Shown: positions 3,964-28,352 of the stretch, piece by piece
Layout: every line of letters begins with the position of its first letter
How positions within the stretch are numbered: position 1 is the stretch's first letter
Origin: a virus
Length of the DNA stretch: 51,347 bases
Virus record (IMG/VR): IMGVR_UViG_3300027805_000021
Coordinates: 1-51,347 of that record
Strand: one strand, 5' to 3'
Notes under the pieces: generated by a model
What the model was told of the DNA's origin: nothing
Database searches by the model: none
Seen by the model: the letters and a program-made list of their open reading frames with translations, nothing else
Made by a program: the position numbers and the translations under genes

Positions 3964-5362
3964 AATTAAATTTTTCCGAGTCGTAAAGTTTCTTTCTTTC
4001 TTTTAAATGGGTTTTACCATATTTTGTATTATCAGATATATCAAATATGTTTGCCATTGTTTTGGTTGGATGTAATCTCAAAGCTCTACCAATTGATTGC
4101 ATTATTTTTATTTTTGCTTTTCCTGCTGATGCAAAAATAATATTATGCAAATTTGGTATATTGATACCTGTGCTAAATATTTTAGATATGGCTACAACTA
4201 TAACATCATTTTTATCATTCATCAATGATCTTATATTCTCTCTTTCTTCTATTTCAGTGGAACCTCTAATAAAATAAAATGGTTTTGTTGTTATCTTTTC
4301 TAATTTTGATACGATATTTAAACCATGATCAATTCTATCTACCATTATTATAGTATTATTAGACAATTTATTAGCCAAATTACATATTATTTCATTTCTT
4401 CTATCGTTTTGTAAAAGAAAATCCATCTCTAATTGATATGCTTCTGCTGGTTTACTAAAATTTAAAAAAATTTTTGGTAAATTTTTATGAATTACATCTA
4501 AAATTATAATTTTGAAGTTTGATATATAATTTTTATTTTTTAAATCTAGTGTTTTCTCTTGATAAACAATTGGTCCTATTTTTCCTATAATATTCCATTC
4601 GTCTATAATCGTTGATGGCATGGTTCCCGTAAAACCAAATTTAAAAGGAGTTTTAATAAATTTTAAAATTTTGTTTATTTCGTTGTTTTTCTTGAATCCA
4701 TGACACTCATCTATCATTAGTATCTTAACATCATTTAAAATTGATATATCAGTCTTATCTGATAGAAGAATCTGTGTACCCGCAATAATTGTTGTTGCAT
4801 TTGGATCTGGTATATTGTCTCCGGACCATTTTGTGACATTTTCCATTCCATATGAAATAAAATCTGAACAGGTTTGTTCTACCAATTGAATAGTAGGAAC
4901 CATTACTAAAACTAATGCGTTAGGATCTTTTAAATTTTGTCTTATGGACTCTATTAATCCTGCCATAATTAAGGTTTTACCACCAGCTGTAGGTATTAAC
5001 ACTACACCCTTTCCCTTTTTTAAGGCTTTTAGTATAGATGTTTTCTGATGTTCTCTATATTCCAATTTAAAATTTGTAATTTCTGGATTTTCAAATCCAT
5101 TATTATAATTTTTTAAAATATCATCATCAACTTCAAATTCTATTTGATTTGCATGTAAAAATGCTTGAATGTTTTCTAATAAACCAGATTCAAACTTTCC
5201 AGATGGAGTGATGGCATAAATTCTGGCTTGTGCAAATTTAGAATTTCTTCTAAATGCAGGATTTGGAGCAGAAAACTTGTCTCTTATTCTATTCAAAATA
5301 GATAAATCACAATTTATTTGAAATTGTGATTTATTATTACCAGAATAAGTGATTTTTACCAT
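3941..5362 (-). CDS. uvsW: UvsW-like superfamily 2 DNA helicase
   Basis: This 473-residue SF2 helicase has Walker A PTAGGKT at residues 124-130, a DECH box in MIDECHGFKK, motif III in FGFTGTMPS, and motifs V and VI in FSTGINIPN and QSIGRALRLHP. About 95 N-terminal residues form the small substrate-recognition domain typical of UvsW. T4 UvsW (503 aa) unwinds branched intermediates, R-loops and Holliday junctions and helps switch from origin- to recombination-dependent replication. The gene lies between gp55 and uvsY, close to T4 order, but an HNH gene separates it from uvsY. Confidence 0.9.
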   Translation of the reverse strand: MVKITYSGNNKSQFQINCDLSILNRIRDKFSAPNPAFRRNSKFAQARIYAITPSGKFESGLLENIQAFLHANQIEFEVDDDILKNYNNGFENPEITNFKLEYREHQKTSILKALKKGKGVVLIPTAGGKTLIMAGLIESIRQNLKDPNALVLVMVPTIQLVEQTCSDFISYGMENVTKWSGDNIPDPNATTIIAGTQILLSDKTDISILNDVKILMIDECHGFKKNNEINKILKFIKTPFKFGFTGTMPSTIIDEWNIIGKIGPIVYQEKTLDLKNKNYISNFKIIILDVIHKNLPKIFLNFSKPAEAYQLEMDFLLQNDRRNEIICNLANKLSNNTIIMVDRIDHGLNIVSKLEKITTKPFYFIRGSTEIEERENIRSLMNDKNDVIVVAISKIFSTGINIPNLHNIIFASAGKAKIKIMQSIGRALRLHPTKTMANIFDISDNTKYGKTHLKERKKLYDSEKFNYEEKKIQ

Positions 5363-6114
5363 ATATTTTTGTTTCCTTTAGAAAGGTTTTCATTCCACCA
5401 TAAAGGTTGCATATTTTTATAATTAAAACATTTTTTCTGTTCGTCTTCATTTATAAGATTAAATGAAGATACTGGTTTAATATGATCTATATGCCAACCA
5501 AATTTACCATGATTATCCCAAGACATACCATCTTTAAACTGTGTTTCTATATGTTTTTTAAAAACCTGTAAAGAACATCCCAATAAATCTAATGTTTTTT
5601 TTGACTTTATTATTTTTTTATTATGTAATGCATTATTTATAGATCTTCTCAAGGTTAAAGAAATTTTAAAATTTACATCGTATAAAATTCTTTTTTTTAC
5701 ATATTCTTTATAATATTTTTTAACTCTATTTGAGTTTTCTTTTTTATTTTTTTGTTCTTTCAAATACATAGATTTACCATGTATTTTTCTATAATTTTTA
5801 TGATATTCTCTTAAACGTTGTTTGTTTTTTTCTCTATATTTTTTACATTGCTGTAAATGTAAATCTCTATTTTTAATACGATATTGTTTTTTCTTTTCGT
5901 TTATTATTTTTTTGTTTTTTTGAAAATATTCTTTCTTTTTCTGTTTTTTTATTTCATCCAAAGATAAAATTTGATTGTTTTCTTTTAAATTTTTCATAAT
6001 TATTCCGAATACAAGAGGACAAACTGTATTATTCCAGTCGAATATTTTGTTGTCAGCCAAAATATTCTTACTCTTGTTATTCTTTATATTTATATTTTTT
6101 AATAAAAAAATCAT
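5356..6114 (-). CDS. HNH homing-type endonuclease
   Basis: The C-terminal 60 or so residues carry the HNH core: WHIDHIKPVSSF, then CFNYKNMQPLWWNENLSKGNK, with the conserved D-H pair and downstream N residues. The first 150 residues are lysine-rich and helical, with repeats such as KKYREKNKQ and HKNYRKIHGK, probably a DNA-binding arm. The start overlaps the UvsY stop as ATGA, which supports translation from 6114. An alternative ATG at 5998 (MKNLKENNQ) would drop 39 residues of unlike composition. Its place between uvsW and uvsY, which are near neighbours in T4, suggests a mobile free-standing endonuclease inserted into a recombination operon. Confidence 0.82.
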   Translation of the reverse strand: MIFLLKNINIKNNKSKNILADNKIFDWNNTVCPLVFGIIMKNLKENNQILSLDEIKKQKKKEYFQKNKKIINEKKKQYRIKNRDLHLQQCKKYREKNKQRLREYHKNYRKIHGKSMYLKEQKNKKENSNRVKKYYKEYVKKRILYDVNFKISLTLRRSINNALHNKKIIKSKKTLDLLGCSLQVFKKHIETQFKDGMSWDNHGKFGWHIDHIKPVSSFNLINEDEQKKCFNYKNMQPLWWNENLSKGNKNIW

Positions 6115-6509
6115 GTCATTTCCATTTTAATAGTATTGTTAATAGACCCAAAATCATAACTCATAGACGAAAATACCTTTTCCACTCTTTCTAAATAATC
6201 AATTAACAACGTAATATCTTCTAGTTCTTGATTTATTTTTTGAATTACTTCTGATGATTCTACTTTGTTGTCTATAGCAGTTTTAGGAATTCCGGTTGGA
6301 ATTCCTTTTTCTGTTATATTTTTTAATACTTCTTGTTTTAAAGTTTTTTTCTTTCTTTCTAATTCAGTTTTGTTTTTTTTATGTTGAATTAACCTAGAAA
6401 CCCATTTGTGACGTATGGCTGGATGCTGCATTTCACGCTCCAATAAATTTAATTGATCGATTTTAACATCTTCGTTTATTTCTAATCTATATTTTTCAAA
6501 AAAGTCCAT
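6111..6509 (-). CDS. uvsY: UvsY-like recombination mediator
   Basis: This is a 132-residue helical, charged protein (T4 UvsY is 137 aa). HPAIRHKWVSRLIQHKKNK and the following lysine-rich KKKTLKQEVLKN stretch match the UvsY family pattern. UvsY loads the UvsX recombinase onto gp32-coated single-stranded DNA. It is the first gene of the leftward operon uvsY-HNH-uvsW-55-47-glycosyltransferases. The upstream gap is only 27 bases, shared with the divergent gene at 6537, and contains an AT-rich palindrome. UvsX and gp32 are not in the window. Confidence 0.8.
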   Translation of the reverse strand: MDFFEKYRLEINEDVKIDQLNLLEREMQHPAIRHKWVSRLIQHKKNKTELERKKKTLKQEVLKNITEKGIPTGIPKTAIDNKVESSEVIQKINQELEDITLLIDYLERVEKVFSSMSYDFGSINNTIKMEMT

Positions 6510-6536: not shown

Positions 6537-6764
6537 ATGTTTAATAAATTTCAACAAACCATAATTAAAATATTAGAAAATAATTCAGTAGGTAATGTAT
6601 TAGGTCAATCATTAGAACCTTTATATAGTCCTCCATCTGATATTACAAATAAAGATAGCTACGCTTCTAAAGATATGAGAACACCTAAAATATTAGGAAA
6701 AAAGGTAATAAAAAGAAAATTTCCGGAACTTATAACAAAGAAAACAAAAAAAAATAAAAAATGA
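6537..6764 (+). CDS. Small protein mimicking the mature N-arm of capsid protein gp23
   Basis: This is a 75-residue protein. Residues 1-14 (MFNKFQQTIIKILE) form a short amphipathic helix ending in an ILE motif like a gp21 cleavage site. Residues 16-67 align with gp23 residues 61-111 with one single-residue gap. NSVGNVLGQSLEPLYSPP here pairs with NSVGGAFGTPDTALYSPP in gp23, then D-x-YA, D-x-R-x-PK and the block FPELIT. In gp23 the shared block also begins just after an IEE motif, a likely maturation site. The copy ends in a lysine-rich tail (KKTKKNKK) and lacks the rest of the capsid fold. A capsid accessory or assembly factor is inferred. The stop overlaps the next start as ATGA. Confidence 0.7.
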   Translation: MFNKFQQTIIKILENNSVGNVLGQSLEPLYSPPSDITNKDSYASKDMRTPKILGKKVIKRKFPELITKKTKKNKK

Positions 6765-7201
6765 TAGATACTGGACATTGGATTTTATGTGAAGGTATTG
6801 AAATAACCGATGAAACATTTGGATTTTTATATTTAATAACAAACAATTTAACAAATAAAAAATATATAGGTAAAAAACAATGTATTTCCAAAATTAGAAG
6901 ACAACCATTAAAGGGGAAAGCTAGAAAAAGAATATGTTACAAACAATCCGATTGGAAGACTTATACAAGTTCATCTAATGAATTAAATGATGATATAATA
7001 AAATATGGTAAAGAAAATTTTACCTTTGAAATTATTAGAATTTGTAATTCCAAATGGGCATTGGCTTATTTTGAAATAAAAGAACAAATTGAAAGAGATG
7101 TTCTTTTAAAAGATGATTACTACAATGGAATAATAAATGTAAGAATTGGAACTGCACCTAAACAAGAATTGGATAATTATAAAAATAAAGTAATTATATA
7201 G
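6761..7201 (+). CDS. GIY-YIG endonuclease-like protein
   Basis: This 146-residue protein has GIY-YIG-type strands: FLYLITNN at residues 22-29 and KKYIGKKQ at 33-40. An arginine/lysine-rich stretch (RRQPLKGKARKRICY) and SDWKTYTSSS follow, and ENFTFEIIRIC is the third strand. This form is common among T4-like phages, often labelled Seg-like or putative homing endonucleases. There is no obvious C-terminal DNA-binding domain, so it may be a bare catalytic module. The gene is coupled to the capsid-arm mimic upstream through an ATGA overlap. Confidence 0.7.
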   Translation: MIDTGHWILCEGIEITDETFGFLYLITNNLTNKKYIGKKQCISKIRRQPLKGKARKRICYKQSDWKTYTSSSNELNDDIIKYGKENFTFEIIRICNSKWALAYFEIKEQIERDVLLKDDYYNGIINVRIGTAPKQELDNYKNKVII

Positions 7202-12354: not shown

Positions 12355-12657
12355 ATGAAATTTGATAAATTAGTAAAATCATTATTAAACGAAGCACCAA
12401 TTGCTGCATTTTCAACAAAAGAAGGATTACCTGTAAGAATAGATTTAAAAATAAAAGATCAATATGCAACAGATTATATTGGTTTTATTTCTTATATCAA
12501 ACAGGTAATGTCACAATTAGATCCTGATTCTAAAAATAAATTTTTAGAAGAATTAAAGAATAACGAAGAATTTAAAAATACTTTTGATTATTTTTATACT
12601 AAAAATGGTAATTTAAATAAAACAATAACCGATTTTTATAATGATATAAATCAATAA
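12355..12657 (+). CDS. Small protein with capsid-targeting-like N-terminus
   Basis: This 100-residue protein begins MKFDKLVKSLLNEAPIAAF. The first 13 residues form an amphipathic helix ending in LNE before a small residue, as in T4 capsid-targeting leaders cut by gp21. The body (ATDYIGFISYIKQVMSQLDP, then KNKFLEELKNNEEFKNTF) is helical and I do not recognise it. Its leader closely resembles that of the protein at 26554 (MKFDILVENYLETLLE). It precedes a strong terminator and is convergent with gp23. A minor internal head protein is the working idea. Confidence 0.55.
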   Translation: MKFDKLVKSLLNEAPIAAFSTKEGLPVRIDLKIKDQYATDYIGFISYIKQVMSQLDPDSKNKFLEELKNNEEFKNTFDYFYTKNGNLNKTITDFYNDINQ

Positions 12658-12740: not shown

Positions 12741-14180
12741 TTAGAGATAGATGCGTCCTGTGTCGGGAGCAAATGCATTGCCAAGTCCTTTAACAATGAT
12801 GATATGATAGTAGAGATTCGCACCGAAGATGTGATCTACTACACCATAACGAGTCATAAGACCAACTCTTGGAGAGAAGTCGTTAGGACCGATTGTTCTT
12901 TGGATCATGACAGGAATATAAGGACAATAGACGATACCAGTGTCATAATATTCTGTACCTTTGAAACCTAAGAGGGCATATTCTAATGAGTTTGTACGTT
13001 GACCATCGAGATACTGAGCATCTGTACGAGTGTCACGGTAGACAGTAAAACGTCCGCCAAGGGAACCAACTTTGGCAATGCCTGAAGGTTGGGTGTTGAC
13101 GTTGCCGTTTACTGGCATCCATTGAAACTCTGGTAACATCTCAAGAATTGCACAAACGCGAGGAGTTGCAATAATGAAGTTAGCGGAACCACGACGATTG
13201 CGGATAGCAATACGGTTGGCTTCGACAATAACTTTGCTGTAGAAGTCACGATTACGCTCACCGAGCCAACGTGCGTCAGCTGATGCGGCGTACCAGAAGC
13301 TGTATCCATTCGGAGAACCTGCATTGAGGGCAACTTGAACCATTCTCATGACCATTTCGCGGTCGATTTCGGCTTGAATTTCATACGACATTGCGTTTGT
13401 CAATTCACCGTCGATATCGAGTCCGTTCATGTTCTTCAAGTCTTGTTCAAGTTCAATAGACCAACGAGCAGCAAGGCGGCGTGTGCCAGCCTCAACAGCT
13501 GTTTTGCTGAATTCGACAGTGACTTGAGGAATATTTCCGGTCAATTCAAATTGACTGAGAATAGCGGCAACACCTTTATCAGAATCGAGAACCTCGAAAT
13601 CTGTATTGGAGGTGAAGTTTGCGCTAGTACCAGTAAATCTGGTGTCTAAGTATTGATAGCCTAATTCTTTGCCTTTACCACCTGATTCAGCATAAGAACG
13701 ATCAATAAAATCGCGCCCAACTGTGGTTTTGCCATTAGCATGACCATCAAGTCCATTAGCACCTAAGCTATCTGCCTCATAGCGGTAACGAAGAGCGAAG
13801 GCCAATCCTACGGGTCCACTCATTGGCTGAACGCCGACGATTTCGTTAGTGATCAACTCAGGGAATGTACGACGAACCATAGGTATTAAAACCTTTGGTA
13901 AGCGTTGGTCGCCTGTTGCATAACGATCTCCAGCGGTAACCGTTCCGGGTGGTGAGTAAAGAGCAGTATCGGGTGTGCCAAAAGCACCACCAACTGAATT
14001 TTCTTCGATGCACCATCTTTCTTGGTTTTCCATTAGGATCGCAGTTGTTAAACGGGCATGTTCGTCTTCAATCGGAGCAACCTTATCGGATGTGTAATTG
14101 AGTACGGGTGACCATTTTTCTACTAATTGTTGAGCACGGGATCTATCGATGTAGCCTGTGGCTGGATTAACATTTCTCAT
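12741..14180 (-). CDS. 23: Major capsid protein gp23-like
   Basis: This 479-residue protein (T4 gp23 is 521) has the T4 capsid signature MVRRTFPELITNEIVGVQPM followed by SGPVGLAFALRYRYE near residue 120. Late motifs include FIIATPRVCAILEMLPEF and the C-terminal RYGVVDHIFGANLYYHII. Residues 1-60 should be the propeptide removed by gp21, with a likely site after IEE (58-60) before NSVGG; LME at 49-51 is a second possible site. The gene is much richer in G and C than its neighbours: 27 of 60 in 13201-13260 against 14 of 60 in gp22 at 14581-14640. This fits codon selection for very high expression. GAAAGG lies upstream, too far for a normal Shine-Dalgarno. Confidence 0.97.
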   Translation of the reverse strand: MRNVNPATGYIDRSRAQQLVEKWSPVLNYTSDKVAPIEDEHARLTTAILMENQERWCIEENSVGGAFGTPDTALYSPPGTVTAGDRYATGDQRLPKVLIPMVRRTFPELITNEIVGVQPMSGPVGLAFALRYRYEADSLGANGLDGHANGKTTVGRDFIDRSYAESGGKGKELGYQYLDTRFTGTSANFTSNTDFEVLDSDKGVAAILSQFELTGNIPQVTVEFSKTAVEAGTRRLAARWSIELEQDLKNMNGLDIDGELTNAMSYEIQAEIDREMVMRMVQVALNAGSPNGYSFWYAASADARWLGERNRDFYSKVIVEANRIAIRNRRGSANFIIATPRVCAILEMLPEFQWMPVNGNVNTQPSGIAKVGSLGGRFTVYRDTRTDAQYLDGQRTNSLEYALLGFKGTEYYDTGIVYCPYIPVMIQRTIGPNDFSPRVGLMTRYGVVDHIFGANLYYHIIIVKGLGNAFAPDTGRIYL

Positions 14181-14253: not shown

Positions 14254-15156
14254 TTAGAACCTACTAAGTTCATTAAGATAGTTCGAAACTGGGTTAAATT
14301 CATCATTTTCAGATGAAACTGTTTTGGATTCCTTTATAACACTTTGAGCATATGGCTTTACATCACCACTCAAAGCCTTTTTCTTGGCTTCCTGAACCAA
14401 ATCAGAAGATTTCTCTTCTTCAGAGCGTTCGAACATCTCAACGACATAATTAAAGTTTTCTTCAATGTATGAAGAATCTTTGTCGTTCAATAAGTTAAAA
14501 ATGTATTCTTTTTTAGCTGATGGCAATCCTTTAGTTTTCTTTTCTAAAAGAACGGCAGTTTCATTTAATTTCAACTTTTCAGCAAGCATATGATTTTCTT
14601 TATATGCTTCATTTAATTTTTCATTAAGATCGTCAATTTTGGATTTTCCTTTGGAAACAACCGATTTAACACTTTCGTTAATATAATCTGGATCAATCCC
14701 AACTAACTCTCTAATTTTATCAAGCTGTTTACGTGCATATGTATTTTGAACAGCTTCTTCTAATTGAAGATTAGGAACATTTTTATCAAGATAAAGATCT
14801 AAATAATTGCTAATCTCGGAAACAATTTTTCCAGAAAATTTTTCTGCTTTTTCATTAATAGCCTTGCGGTAAAATGAAATTACGTTTTTTAATTTATCTG
14901 TGTGATTTTCAGTAAGGGCATTTACGACTTGTTGTAATTTACCAGTATGATCTGTATCAATTGCCTCTAAAAGTGTTTTAAGTTTATTTGCGTGATTTTC
15001 ATCCTGTTTGGATAACGCACTTTCTAATTCTAAAGTAACTCTAGCATTTACCTTTTCTTCTACTGCATTATCAAATGCTTCGGTAATTGCTTTGGCGGTT
15101 TCTTCGTTGATGACACTTTCATCGACTTGTTTTAAGATTTCTGCGAATTTATTCAT
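14254..15156 (-). CDS. 22: Prohead core scaffold protein gp22-like
   Basis: This 300-residue, highly charged, largely coiled-coil protein lies between gp21 and gp23, as in T4 (gp22 is 269 aa). Features are the N-terminal helix MNKFAEILKQVDESVINE, repeated NHADK/NHTDK-type segments, and KIDDLNEKLNEAYKENHMLAEKL. Several (I/L)xE motifs are potential gp21 sites, consistent with scaffold being digested during maturation. GGTAAATA at 15171-15178 (minus) ends 14 bases before the start. Confidence 0.85.
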   Translation of the reverse strand: MNKFAEILKQVDESVINEETAKAITEAFDNAVEEKVNARVTLELESALSKQDENHANKLKTLLEAIDTDHTGKLQQVVNALTENHTDKLKNVISFYRKAINEKAEKFSGKIVSEISNYLDLYLDKNVPNLQLEEAVQNTYARKQLDKIRELVGIDPDYINESVKSVVSKGKSKIDDLNEKLNEAYKENHMLAEKLKLNETAVLLEKKTKGLPSAKKEYIFNLLNDKDSSYIEENFNYVVEMFERSEEEKSSDLVQEAKKKALSGDVKPYAQSVIKESKTVSSENDEFNPVSNYLNELSRF

Positions 15157-15697: not shown

Positions 15698-16405
15698 TTA
15701 AAGTTTTTTTATTGCATTAATAAATGTAATAAATTGTTCTTTTAAATATGCATCTCTTTCTTTGTTTGGTAATTTAGAAATAGCCTTTTCAAATGTATCG
15801 TAAAAAGGTTCAAATTCACCACTCTCAGCAAGAACCCATTTTTTGGATTCCAAGATACCATTAACAAATGCAGTAGGAACGGATGGATCAGCAACAACAT
15901 CAATTGCAACCAATCTAAAGTCAGATACAACACCAACCCCTTGTTTGTTGTTATCAACTCTTCCCAATGCTCTGGATGATACACCTAATTTAACACCATC
16001 CATAATTAATGAACGAACGATTTGTCCCATTGGAGTAGAGAGAATTTTTGATTTACCTTCAAAGATGTCACCATTTTGTTTTAATTCTGTAACCATGTGA
16101 CAGGCTCTTTCCAAATTAACTTCAGGTGAGGTAGGATGATTTAATTCACCTGTAGATCTACTATTAACAATCATTTCGGAGGTATATCTATTGACCTCTT
16201 CTACCATTTGGTTTCTTGGATAAATTCTATTATTTCTATTTGGTCTATCTGCCATCAAAAACGGCCCTTGTATAAAAAGATTAGACGGAGAGTTTCTATT
16301 TTTTTCTTCCACCAAATATTTCAACTCATAATTTGGTGTTTCTACTAATAGATTATAGGCATTGCTCATATTTATATTATTATTACTTATACTACACTTG
16401 TTCAT
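15698..16405 (-). CDS. 21: Prohead protease gp21-like
   Basis: This is a 235-residue peptidase of the T4 gp21 family (T4: 212 aa). LADRPNRNNRIYPR-type residues near 50-64, the catalytic His in GELNHPTSPEVN (His90) and the catalytic Ser in GVSSRALG (Ser143/144) are all present, followed by FRLVAIDVVADPSVPTAFV. It would mature gp23, gp22 and other head proteins by cutting after (I/L)xE. The start at 16405 overlaps the gp4 stop as ATGA. An inner ATG at MSNAYNLL (residue 13) is also possible because the first 12 residues are Asn-rich. Confidence 0.93.
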   Translation of the reverse strand: MNKCSISNNNINMSNAYNLLVETPNYELKYLVEEKNRNSPSNLFIQGPFLMADRPNRNNRIYPRNQMVEEVNRYTSEMIVNSRSTGELNHPTSPEVNLERACHMVTELKQNGDIFEGKSKILSTPMGQIVRSLIMDGVKLGVSSRALGRVDNNKQGVGVVSDFRLVAIDVVADPSVPTAFVNGILESKKWVLAESGEFEPFYDTFEKAISKLPNKERDAYLKEQFITFINAIKKL

Positions 16406-17746: not shown

Positions 17747-19636
17747 TTATGCGGTAGGTTGCTCAGTTTCTTCTCCCTCTGCTTGACCTGCTGGCTGTGG
17801 TTCTAAACCTTGACCTTCTGGAATCTCTCCACCCGCCTCGGCTCCTGCTTCTGGTGTTCCTACTGCCCCGCCACCACCTCCACCAAATTCTGGAATAGCA
17901 GAGGAACCGCCGCCACCACCTCCACCACCGCCCATTCCTGCTTCTGCTCCACCTTGAGCAGCAACATTCTCGGCAGCTTCTAAGTGTTCTCTCCAATTTG
18001 GACCAGTGGAAGCAATTTGATCGAGTTCCCATTTCAATGCTGCATCTTTTCTCAACCATTCCATGTTTTCACTTATCTTGGAATCATTCAATCCTAAGTA
18101 ATGGCGCATGGCAAATGTTTTAGATATATTTTCTTGCTGTGCCATGCTTTCAAAATTTTTAATCTTTAATTCTAAATTTTGATTTTGTCTTAATGCAAAA
18201 TAACTACTAGGAGGACAAAATTCCAAATCAAAATAAGATTCGTGTAATTTATATTCATTCCACCATCCTCTTATTTTTAAATGAGTAATAAATGCATCTT
18301 TCAAACCTTTACAAAATTGAAATTGCATTCTTAAAATCATTTTTGCAAATCTTAATTCTTCTCTTAAAATTTCAGATCCATCTTTATAAGAATCTTCTGG
18401 ATTTAATCTGGTAGAAGGAACACCCAATGCATTATATAACTTTGTTACGAAATACATCAAGTCTTTCAATTCTCCAAGATTTTGACCACCTTGTAAAACC
18501 TGAACATCAGAACCGGATTCACCAGTTCTTTTTGCAAACCAATAAGAATCCAACATAGACTGTGGATCATATATATTACCTGCACTTCCACCATTTTGTG
18601 GATCATAGGATTTCTTAGACCAATAAGATTGCATCAATTGTTTTAAATATGCTTCGGCTTTTGCTGGAGGCATATTACCCACATCAATAACAAATTTAAG
18701 TCTTTCTGGTGCTCTTACTAAACGATAAATTACTATAGCATCTTCAATTAATGATAATTGTTTATATGCTCTTCTTCCTTTTTCTATATGAGGAATTCTT
18801 ATAGACATATCCTCGTTCCAAATACCGGAATTTATATAGGTTATTTGATTTCCTTCAAATGTTATTAGTTGATGTTGTAAAGAATTGGTAGGATTGGGAT
18901 TAGGCATCGGCAAGTTTGGTTGTCCTTGCTGATTATTTGTCATATTTATTGGTTTTTGAAATATGAAATTCTGAATTACATTGTTTTGAATGTTGTCATA
19001 GATGGGATTTATCAACTCACCGGGCACATTTAAGACACCAATAATTCCCAAGTCTTTATTTTTTTCGTGTACAATATTTTCAAAAAATATTTCTCCCTCG
19101 GTTAATAACTGTCTACAATAACCCCATCCTTTATTTTCTAATTCATAACTTTGAACAAATTTATGAAATTCTTTTTCTATTTCTAATTTTTCTTGACTAT
19201 CAATTTTATTGAAACCAGAAAATTTAATGTTTACTACTTTTCCGTTTTCATCTTTATTTATAAATTCATCACATATAGCATCCAAGCAATCAGCCACTTC
19301 AGAAAAAGATGCCATTCTTCTATATTCTGATAATCTTCTTATTTTATCTGTATCTATTTGAGCATAAATAAAGTTATGATACCCTTTATCAGTTGACATC
19401 AAATTCGGATTATAATAATCCGATTGATTTTGATTCATGAACGGTCCGGTAATAACGGACTGTTGCATTACTCTCAATTCACGCTTTTTAGATAACCTAT
19501 CAAATAGTTCGTATTTGGGATTTGTATCACCAACATCCAATGCCTGATCAACATATGGTAATTTTGACAACAAAGAAGCTATAAAACTTCTTCCGGAATC
19601 TGGTTGCCTATTTGGTTGTGGTAAAATATCTGCCAT
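17747..19636 (-). CDS. 20: Portal vertex protein gp20-like
   Basis: This 629-residue protein is about 100 longer than T4 gp20 (524). The family pattern is clear: FSEVADCLDAICDEFINKDE, RIPHIEKGRRAYKQLSLIED, AIVIYRLVRAPERLKFVIDV, GNMPPAKAEAYLKQLMQ, and GVPSTRLNPEDSYKDGSEI. It forms the 12-subunit packaging ring. The last 75 or so residues are an unusual Gly/Ala/Glu-rich tail with two poly-Gly runs, and its DNA is far more G+C rich than the rest of the gene. TATAAATA at 19650-19657 (minus) lies 13 bases upstream. Confidence 0.95.
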   Translation of the reverse strand: MADILPQPNRQPDSGRSFIASLLSKLPYVDQALDVGDTNPKYELFDRLSKKRELRVMQQSVITGPFMNQNQSDYYNPNLMSTDKGYHNFIYAQIDTDKIRRLSEYRRMASFSEVADCLDAICDEFINKDENGKVVNIKFSGFNKIDSQEKLEIEKEFHKFVQSYELENKGWGYCRQLLTEGEIFFENIVHEKNKDLGIIGVLNVPGELINPIYDNIQNNVIQNFIFQKPINMTNNQQGQPNLPMPNPNPTNSLQHQLITFEGNQITYINSGIWNEDMSIRIPHIEKGRRAYKQLSLIEDAIVIYRLVRAPERLKFVIDVGNMPPAKAEAYLKQLMQSYWSKKSYDPQNGGSAGNIYDPQSMLDSYWFAKRTGESGSDVQVLQGGQNLGELKDLMYFVTKLYNALGVPSTRLNPEDSYKDGSEILREELRFAKMILRMQFQFCKGLKDAFITHLKIRGWWNEYKLHESYFDLEFCPPSSYFALRQNQNLELKIKNFESMAQQENISKTFAMRHYLGLNDSKISENMEWLRKDAALKWELDQIASTGPNWREHLEAAENVAAQGGAEAGMGGGGGGGGGSSAIPEFGGGGGGAVGTPEAGAEAGGEIPEGQGLEPQPAGQAEGEETEQPTA

Positions 19637-26529: not shown

Positions 26530-26557
26530 AGAATACTAGTTTTTAAAAATATGTCAA
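26530..26557 (-). promoter_or_regulatory. Sigma-70-like promoter before primase
   Basis: On the minus strand TTGACA (26557-26552) and TATTCT (26535-26530) are separated by 16 bases. The -10 box lies 6 bases before the primase ATG at 26523, so the leader would be very short or absent. The spacing is the same as in the promoter at 8258. Confidence 0.45.
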
Positions 26558-27045
26558 TTAAATTTGTTCTCTAGGTTATCAAAAACCGAATCATCGAAAC
26601 TAAAGTCTTCAGAGTTTTCTTGTTCACCAGTTTCTTGATCTGATGTTTCTTCGTTTGAATTTTCATCTTCGGAAGATTCATTCTCTGTAGAATCTTCATC
26701 ATCTTTCTCTTCAAATGGAGAGAAAGATTTTCTTTCTTTTATAAAGAATTTTATAAATTCGTTAGCATTGAATTCGACTGGACTTTTCTTATCAAAATTA
26801 TGCTTTAAGTTGTTTTCTATTATAGATTTAATTTTAGAAATGGTAAAACGATTTTCTTCATTATCTTGTTTTAAAAATTCTAAAATTTTTGAATATATAG
26901 GTTTACTTAAATTATCATCGGACATTTTTTCGATATAATTTTCAATATCATCAAAATCCAATGAAATTTCTTTGGAATGATCTGTCTTTGGTCTTCCTTC
27001 TAAAAGGGTTTCTAAATAGTTTTCAACTAAAATGTCAAATTTCAT
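26554..27045 (-). CDS. Acidic protein with capsid-targeting-like N-terminus
   Basis: This 163-residue protein begins MKFDILVENYLETLLEGRP, an amphipathic helix ending in LLE before Gly, like a gp21-cleaved leader. Residues 20-110 are helical. The last 50 are a Glu/Asp/Ser/Asn-rich acidic tail ending DDSVFDNLENKFN. TGTAAATA ends 5 bases before the ATG, so it is probably a late gene. An acidic internal head or scaffold-associated protein is plausible. No family is recognised. Confidence 0.55.
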   Translation of the reverse strand: MKFDILVENYLETLLEGRPKTDHSKEISLDFDDIENYIEKMSDDNLSKPIYSKILEFLKQDNEENRFTISKIKSIIENNLKHNFDKKSPVEFNANEFIKFFIKERKSFSPFEEKDDEDSTENESSEDENSNEETSDQETGEQENSEDFSFDDSVFDNLENKFN

Positions 27046-28004: not shown

Positions 28005-28352
28005 TTAAAAGCTATTTTCTGGAAAATTTGATTGTGTACTATCTAAAAATGATTGAAGTGTTTTTTCTGCTTCTTTTGGTTCGGTTTCTATTTTTTTTTC
28101 TAAATCAGACAAACTGTTTCTTTTGTCTGTATCGTTTTTATATGCCATAATCAATGCTTTTTGAACCATTAAAAGCAATGCTTTATATTTTTCTTCATTT
28201 AAATCAATAGTTTCTTCTGTTGGTAATTCGGAATCTAATACTTCAGTAGGTTGAGGTTGTTGAACAGAAGGATCTTCTGCCATCATTTCATCAGCCTGTT
28301 GTTCTGTTAAATATTGTCTTGCTGCTTTGTCGAATATATCTTTAAATTTCAT
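28005..28352 (-). CDS. Small acidic protein with capsid-targeting-like N-terminus
   Basis: This 115-residue protein begins MKFKDIFDKAARQYLTEQQ, an amphipathic helix ending in LTE. An acidic Pro/Gln/Glu-rich middle follows, then a helix (EEKYKALLLMVQKALIMAYK) and a C-terminal region ending in SNFPENSF. Two copies of TATAAATA upstream suggest strong late expression. By composition it could be an internal head or core component. No family is recognised. Confidence 0.55.
   Translation of the reverse strand: MKFKDIFDKAARQYLTEQQADEMMAEDPSVQQPQPTEVLDSELPTEETIDLNEEKYKALLLMVQKALIMAYKNDTDKRNSLSDLEKKIETEPKEAEKTLQSFLDSTQSNFPENSF

Follow-up and report, generated by a model that had tools for sequence, protein, structure and literature searches.

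A small gene beside uvsY in a metagenomic phage encodes a second copy of the gp23 N-terminal arm and is a probable counterpart of T4 gene 61.1

The stretch of DNA analyzed, IMG/VR record IMGVR_UViG_3300027805_000021 over 51,347 nucleotides (the window), contains the gene of the major capsid protein gp23, further head genes, and a short gene next to uvsY, termed here the mimic. The features relevant to the analysis are the following.

6111..6509, minus strand: uvsY (PF11056, E = 1.1e-7; phrog_231), the divergent neighbor that fixes the conserved slot by synteny
6537..6764, plus strand: the gp23 N-arm mimic gene, 75 amino acids, ATG to TGA
6537..6578, plus strand: mimic residues 1-14, MFNKFQQTIIKILE, a predicted, capsid-targeting-like leader helix (AlphaFold2) ending in a gp21-type ILE motif (motif conservation) with a putative cleavage site
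6579..6737, plus strand: mimic residues 15-67, the copy of the mature gp23 N-terminal arm (score 128 against a shuffled maximum of 55)
6738..6761, plus strand: the Lys-rich tail KKTKKNKK (net charge of the mature protein about +10)
6761..7201, plus strand: a SegE-like GIY-YIG gene (PF19835, E = 5.6e-31; phrog_447), by synteny the usual downstream neighbor of the mimic
12741..14180, minus strand: gp23 major capsid protein, 479 amino acids (PF07068, E = 4.7e-90; phrog_138)
13842..14000, minus strand: gp23 residues 61-113, the copied N-arm region (alignment to the mimic)
14001..14180, minus strand: gp23 residues 1-60, the propeptide predicted from the sequence, ending in CIEE at a putative cleavage site
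14254..15156, minus strand: gp22-like scaffold/core protein (phrog_237, E = 9.8e-7; PF25623, E = 4e-5, just below the cut-off)
15698..16405, minus strand: gp21-type prohead protease, presumed to carry out the processing (PF03420 Peptidase_S77, E = 1.5e-28; phrog_207)

The start of the GIY-YIG gene overlaps the mimic stop codon by four bases. An Endonuclease VII/HNH-like gene (phrog_1035; 5356-6114, minus strand) is located between uvsY and uvsW; it is absent from the distant lineages tabulated and may be a mobile insertion.

The mimic product, MFNKFQQTIIKILENNSVGNVLGQSLEPLYSPPSDITNKDSYASKDMRTPKILGKKVIKRKFPELITKKTKKNKK, aligned over residues 13-69 with residues 58-113 of the gp23 of the same phage, with 48% identity, one 1-residue gap, and a BLOSUM62 score of 128, whereas 5,000 shuffles of the mimic gave a mean of 27 and a maximum of 55. 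Used as the query against the whole 51-kb record, it matched only itself and gp23. At the DNA level there was no comparable alignment, the best match being 18 nt long, and the same codon was used at 6 of the 27 identical residues. The similarity is thus old and has been kept at the protein level. A recent duplication or an assembly chimera was ruled out by the missing DNA similarity, the codon mismatch, and the occurrence of the gene on eight further contigs. The mimic had no Gp23 match in Pfam, and with 75 residues that correspond to the arm only, it lacks the HK97-type capsid fold that defines gp23 and gp24.

AlphaFold2 predicted a single helix in the mimic, at residues 4-15 (mean pLDDT of 83 for residues 1-10), the remainder being low-confidence coil; the gp23 model was also of low confidence (mean pLDDT of 52), with a disordered arm. 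The shared block begins just after the motif in both proteins, as ILE followed by NNSVG in the mimic and as IEE followed by NSVG in gp23. The original prediction, made from the window sequence alone, had proposed that a small protein copies the gp23 arm at residues 16-67 (gp23 residues 61-111), directly after an (I/L)xE motif that ends a short helix and ahead of a Lys-rich tail. The copy, the motif, its position at the end of the helix, and the tail were all borne out, and the limits proposed were correct to within about 3 residues. The motif and the protease gene together suggest that the mimic leader would be removed by gp21.

Close relatives of the mimic (84-99%) were found on eight further viral contigs, and divergent members were retrieved by searching the full records of phages with a related gp23. 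An alignment of 22 members revealed a single architecture, in which a helix of 8 to 15 residues leads to a motif ending in E, followed by a Gly/Ser/Asn-rich arm with a D.YA..D.R block and by a Lys-rich run. After this run, I-x-RR is frequent and matches gp23 (LIPMIRRTFPELI). Across families, the copy was directly preceded by (I/L/V/M)xE in 26 of 30 proteins and by the strict form (I/L)xE in 22 of 30, and the leaders ahead of this conserved motif vary from a 10-amino-acid targeting sequence or a 13-amino-acid helix to a domain of about 110 amino acids. The net charge of the mature forms in the window clade ranged from +6 to +11. In one contig (L167, 1134-1763), the arm copy and Lys-rich run are fused to a C-terminal domain of ~130 amino acids, for which Pfam, PHROGs, and NCBIfam gave no match and the PDB no convincing one. 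Its likeness to an ADP-ribosyltransferase was noted by eye only, was backed by no library, and was discarded.

The position of the gene is also conserved. At the loci with tabulated surroundings, the mimic is divergent from uvsY, which is then followed by uvsW, gp55, and gp47, and the SegE-like GIY-YIG gene comes next after the mimic in nearly all cases, with L124 and L167 among the exceptions. One more small open reading frame (ORF) lies between the mimic and uvsY in G020 and G046. Among 14 large records searched, uvsY was reached in 5, and the small gene adjoined it in all 5; the mimics of G007 and G014, which were missed by profile searches, were found in this way beside uvsY. The recurrence of the same slot across lineages indicates that the mimic is an old resident gene and not a mobile fragment. 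Comparison of the window gene with its near relatives gave dN/dS values of 0.12 to 0.18, indicative of purifying selection. A late-promoter-like ATAAATA box was present within 60 nt upstream of 11 of the 16 genes of the window clade, against an expectation of 0.3; the window's own mimic gene has no such box upstream. The clade as sampled here consists of metagenomic contigs only, and the isolates nearest to it in gp23 sequence are cyanophages, which share about 35% identity. A profile built from diverse members was too variable for scanning the collection, and tblastn searches of isolates with the window protein or two divergent relatives returned nothing useful, whereas the arm of each phage's own gp23 succeeded as a query.

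The gp23 arm is highly variable among window-clade phages, and taken together the mimics resemble the arm of their own phage more than those of others. Across nine lineages of this clade, own mimic/gp23 pairs reached 91.9 versus 65.6 for other pairs (permutation p about 0.001), a difference that a few lineages account for. The resemblance was strong in the window, in G020 (small protein DNVAGGTGSVFSNGNVNIG versus own gp23 NNVAGGTGSVFSNGSVNVG), and in G035/G013 (for G035, NEDNVAGVGGVFGSGPSIGGVFNPP versus NEDNTAGNGGVFGSGASIGAAFNPP), and it was absent in G009 and G012. In cyanophages it was borderline (p = 0.05), and among Straboviridae it did not reach significance (p = 0.15). Given that the gene occupies a single slot, one old duplication without later matching would have left the copies equally far from all gp23s. 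In matched pairs, synonymous codons were mostly randomized, the same codon being used at 10 of 30, 11 of 32, and 18 of 35 identical residues; this argues against recent gene conversion and is still compatible with old conversion events. The small protein of G009 (L124) was closer to the gp23 arm of the window (L029; score of 130) than to its own (score of 85), as if these lineages had swapped arm types.

A search of the whole T4 genome with the T4 gp23 arm led to gene 61.1 (18966-19130, minus strand), immediately upstream of gp61. Its product (NP_049649; phrog_1823, unknown function) has 54 amino acids, MKTFKEFIKEDMVAGDSGGNPENISIGTTSGAVVNKGPEQIPKKKKEESKEKEE, and aligned with gp23 residues 57-93 with a score of 82, against a maximum of 61 in 5,000 shuffles; residues 11-38 pair with gp23 residues 66-93. 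Maturation of T4 gp23 removes 65 residues (PMC9958956), and residues 66-91 form the N-fist, which is disordered in the five portal-facing subunits of the portal-vertex structure (PMC7136217) and elsewhere contacts four subunits (PMC9958956). The gp23 arms are disordered within the prohead and become ordered on the shell at expansion (PMC9958956, PMC7136217). The N-terminus of gp61.1, MKTFKEFIKE, closely matches the proven capsid-targeting sequence of T4 IPII and IPIII, MKTYQEFIAE. Targeting of IPIII depends on residues 4 and 7 and its processing on residues 8 and 10, and gp21 cuts after L/I-X-E (PMC9026906); gp61.1 retains F7, I8, and E10 and has a conservative F instead of Y at position 4. 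This match strengthens the earlier proposal of a capsid-targeting leader, although the 14-residue leader helix of the window protein is not demonstrably the same sequence as that of T4. There was no similarity between gp61.1 and gp24, none of the PDB chains corresponds to gp61.1, and the literature open to searching mentioned gp61.1 in annotation lines only, with nothing on its function.

The T4 gene is not an isolated case, as tblastn detected relatives of gp61.1 in 1,403 phage records. An arm mimic was located upstream of or next to gp61 in 8 of 8 Straboviridae examined, which were picked because a first search had matched them, and the copy was far above shuffled scores. Counterparts next to gp61 occur in RB69, Aeromonas phage 31, Acinetobacter Stupor, Cronobacter leE, Proteus SJ_PmiM, Serratia 4S, and Vibrio K567. 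The copy begins straight after LFE, VDE, LNE, IIE, IKE, or LEE, even where an N-terminal domain of ~100 amino acids is present. Such a domain (F.EW.A...GII...G) replaces the 10-amino-acid targeting sequence of T4 in the 61.1 genes of L217, L218, L219, L220, and L212.

When a cyanophage gp23 arm was used as the query in cyanophages, short second matches were obtained in S-SSM7 (SSSM7_213, MKTYKELKEMMAVGTGGFTSAADSKGPVAGYDLPFGGMIRRW...KQTQKRKKDGR) and S-CREM2 (ORF160), and two other cyanophages gave no second match at that sensitivity. Exactly one arm-copy protein per genome was present in 9 of 9 cyanophages examined, all picked because the S-SSM7 protein or the arm search had matched them, and the copy was again far above shuffled scores. 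The slot is conserved, with a T4-GC 198-type gene before it and the gp61 primase gene and nrdA downstream. Small ORFs near the cyanophage uvsY were rejected as counterparts, as they showed no arm similarity and the true counterpart is the gene upstream of gp61. The C-termini of cyanophage members are long and variable (ORF160 shares a C-terminal region of ~160 residues with other cyanophage proteins), and the proteins of S-MbCM100 and P-RSM4 are without a leader as annotated. In CsCl-purified S-CREM2 virions, the ORF160 product (128342-129235) was identified by 7 unique peptides, at 13.1% coverage (PMC10665884, Table 3); this concerns one long homologue, and CsCl preparations can carry contaminants. 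None of the outcomes named at the outset as refuting the original prediction came up: homologues recurred, the alignment was far above shuffled scores, and presence in virions was found for this one cyanophage homologue. Short cyanophage arm-copy proteins are labeled "major head protein" in some records and in PHROG 696, which matches these proteins and not full capsid proteins, so this name is probably a mislabel. Annotation pipelines had therefore noticed the similarity but mislabeled it, and in the papers searched we found no explanation for an arm-copy protein.

On these grounds we propose a family of gp61.1-type gp23-arm mimics, characterized by a second copy of the gp23 N-arm, an (I/L)xE-type motif, and a Lys-rich stretch; judged by its sequence, the window protein has all three. 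Like the window mimic, T4 gp61.1 possesses a targeting-type leader, an LxE-type motif, a copy of the arm of its own gp23, and a Lys cluster at the end, and it is present once per genome. It differs in that its copy ends at gp23 residue 93, without the RRTFPELIT part, in that its gene lies upstream of the gp61 primase gene and not beside uvsY, and in its mature form, which is not basic overall. Since the tail of T4 gp61.1 after the cut is of mixed charge and the mature form has a net charge of -2, DNA binding cannot be what the tail serves for in every member. The cyanophage proteins (phrog_696 and phrog_3286; SSSM7_213, ORF160, and P-RSM4_198) share the arm copy, the Lys-rich stretch, and, in most cases, a short leader that ends in xE, but occupy another slot, in several cases have long extra C-terminal regions, and in two lack the leader as annotated. 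The uvsY-side and gp61-side slots differ, and the arms diverge too fast to separate a common from a repeated origin. Among other T4 head proteins, IPII and IPIII are likewise small and internal to the prohead with an N-terminal targeting sequence cut by gp21, but carry no gp23 arm copy, and the vertex protein gp24 is a minor gp23 relative in the shell that is processed by gp21, but has the full capsid fold and not the arm only. Inh, gp67, and gp68 are small or minor prohead proteins, gp68 with a basic tail, and none scored over the shuffled maximum against gp23. An identity of the mimic with Inh, suggested by the segE/uvsW neighborhood, was accordingly rejected.

We consider it probable that the mimic is a small prohead-internal protein that is cut by gp21, docks with its new N-terminus in the manner of the capsid N-arm, keeps its tail inside, and is the counterpart of T4 gp61.1. 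Its N-terminal helix would act as a capsid-targeting sequence that takes the protein into the prohead, and the gp21-type protease would cut after (I/L)xE at the same stage at which gp23 is trimmed, so that the new N-terminus would be a stand-alone mature gp23 N-arm (the N-fist in T4). During maturation and expansion, the arm copy may dock in arm or fist sites of the shell left unfilled by gp23 arms or share sites with gp23; candidate places are beside the portal or the pentamers. Since copy and fist have the same end point in T4, the vacant or disordered N-fist sites at the portal would be attractive. The Lys-rich tail would remain in the lumen against the DNA and could anchor cargo where an extra domain exists. 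Targeting, cleavage, docking, and tail position are what we infer for the window protein, and the destination of the arm copy is the most doubtful step. The sequences themselves show the copy and its conservation, the leader and the motif, the synteny, the selection on the gene, and, in the window clade, the resemblance to the phage's own capsid. Two further points have been shown by experiment elsewhere: one homologue is present in virions, and the T4 sequence to which the start of gp61.1 is so similar does direct targeting. Tentatively, and with clearly less confidence, the mimic might represent an overlooked maturation component, a separate free N-arm/N-fist that is processed with gp23 and fills those arm sites, at the portal vertex or pentamers, which gp23 is unable to occupy, its sequence being held to the fast-changing arm of its own capsid.

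Several alternatives were weighed. The mimic might regulate assembly by competing with gp23 for gp21, the scaffold, or the folding chaperone, thereby setting the pace of gp23 cleavage or of shell growth before it is degraded or expelled. The cleavage context it shares with the gp23 propeptide junction would fit, as would the N-terminus of T4 gp21, which is itself a self-cleaved block (PMC9958956), and the protease inhibitor Inh already known in T4-type phages. However, the conserved part consists of the residues after the cut and the gp23 propeptide is not copied, one homologue remains in the virion, and Inh does not resemble gp23; we regard this role as unlikely. About equally improbable is that the arm copy serves only to anchor or package a protein whose tail or fused domain works in the host, delivered with the DNA like IPI or Alt. 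The targeting sequence common to gp61.1 and IPII/IPIII, the fused L167 domain, and the long cyanophage C-termini point in this direction, but in T4 and the window clade almost only a short charged tail follows the arm copy, and the arm is the conserved part. A decoration or vertex protein whose arm copy binds hexamer or penton sites from outside appears very unlikely: mature gp23 arms do have their ends on the outer surface once the shell has expanded (PMC9958956), but with a cleavable targeting leader the protein would have to enter from inside before expansion, and most members have no folded outer domain. The vertex or decoration role raised in the original prediction is hence not favored over an internal one. 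A functionless capsid-gene fragment traveling with the homing-type endonuclease, as the four-base overlap might suggest, was ruled out for practical purposes by the dN/dS of about 0.15, the same slot in each related lineage examined, and the same kind of protein in another slot without a GIY-YIG neighbor in cyanophages and T4.

The internal, arm-docking role would provide gene 61.1, an orphan of the best-studied phage with relatives in over a thousand phage records, with a specific and cheaply testable hypothesis on head assembly. As an arm copy with a protease-type motif is present in nearly every sampled T4 relative, the best-studied phage family probably contains an overlooked head component. 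The arm-copy reading would account for the "major head protein" labels on short proteins and suggests that phages can detach an arm of the shell protein and reuse it on its own, perhaps to tether DNA or cargo. The resemblance to the phage's own capsid in one clade would constitute a natural experiment on arm-shell specificity.

Three other ORFs of the window, all of them unassigned, begin with a leader similar to that of the mimic, at 12355-12657 (plus strand; MKFDKLVKSLLNE), 26554-27045 (minus strand; MKFDILVENYLETLLE), and 28005-28352 (minus strand; MKFKDIFDKAARQYLTE), and their products are possible further prohead-targeted proteins.
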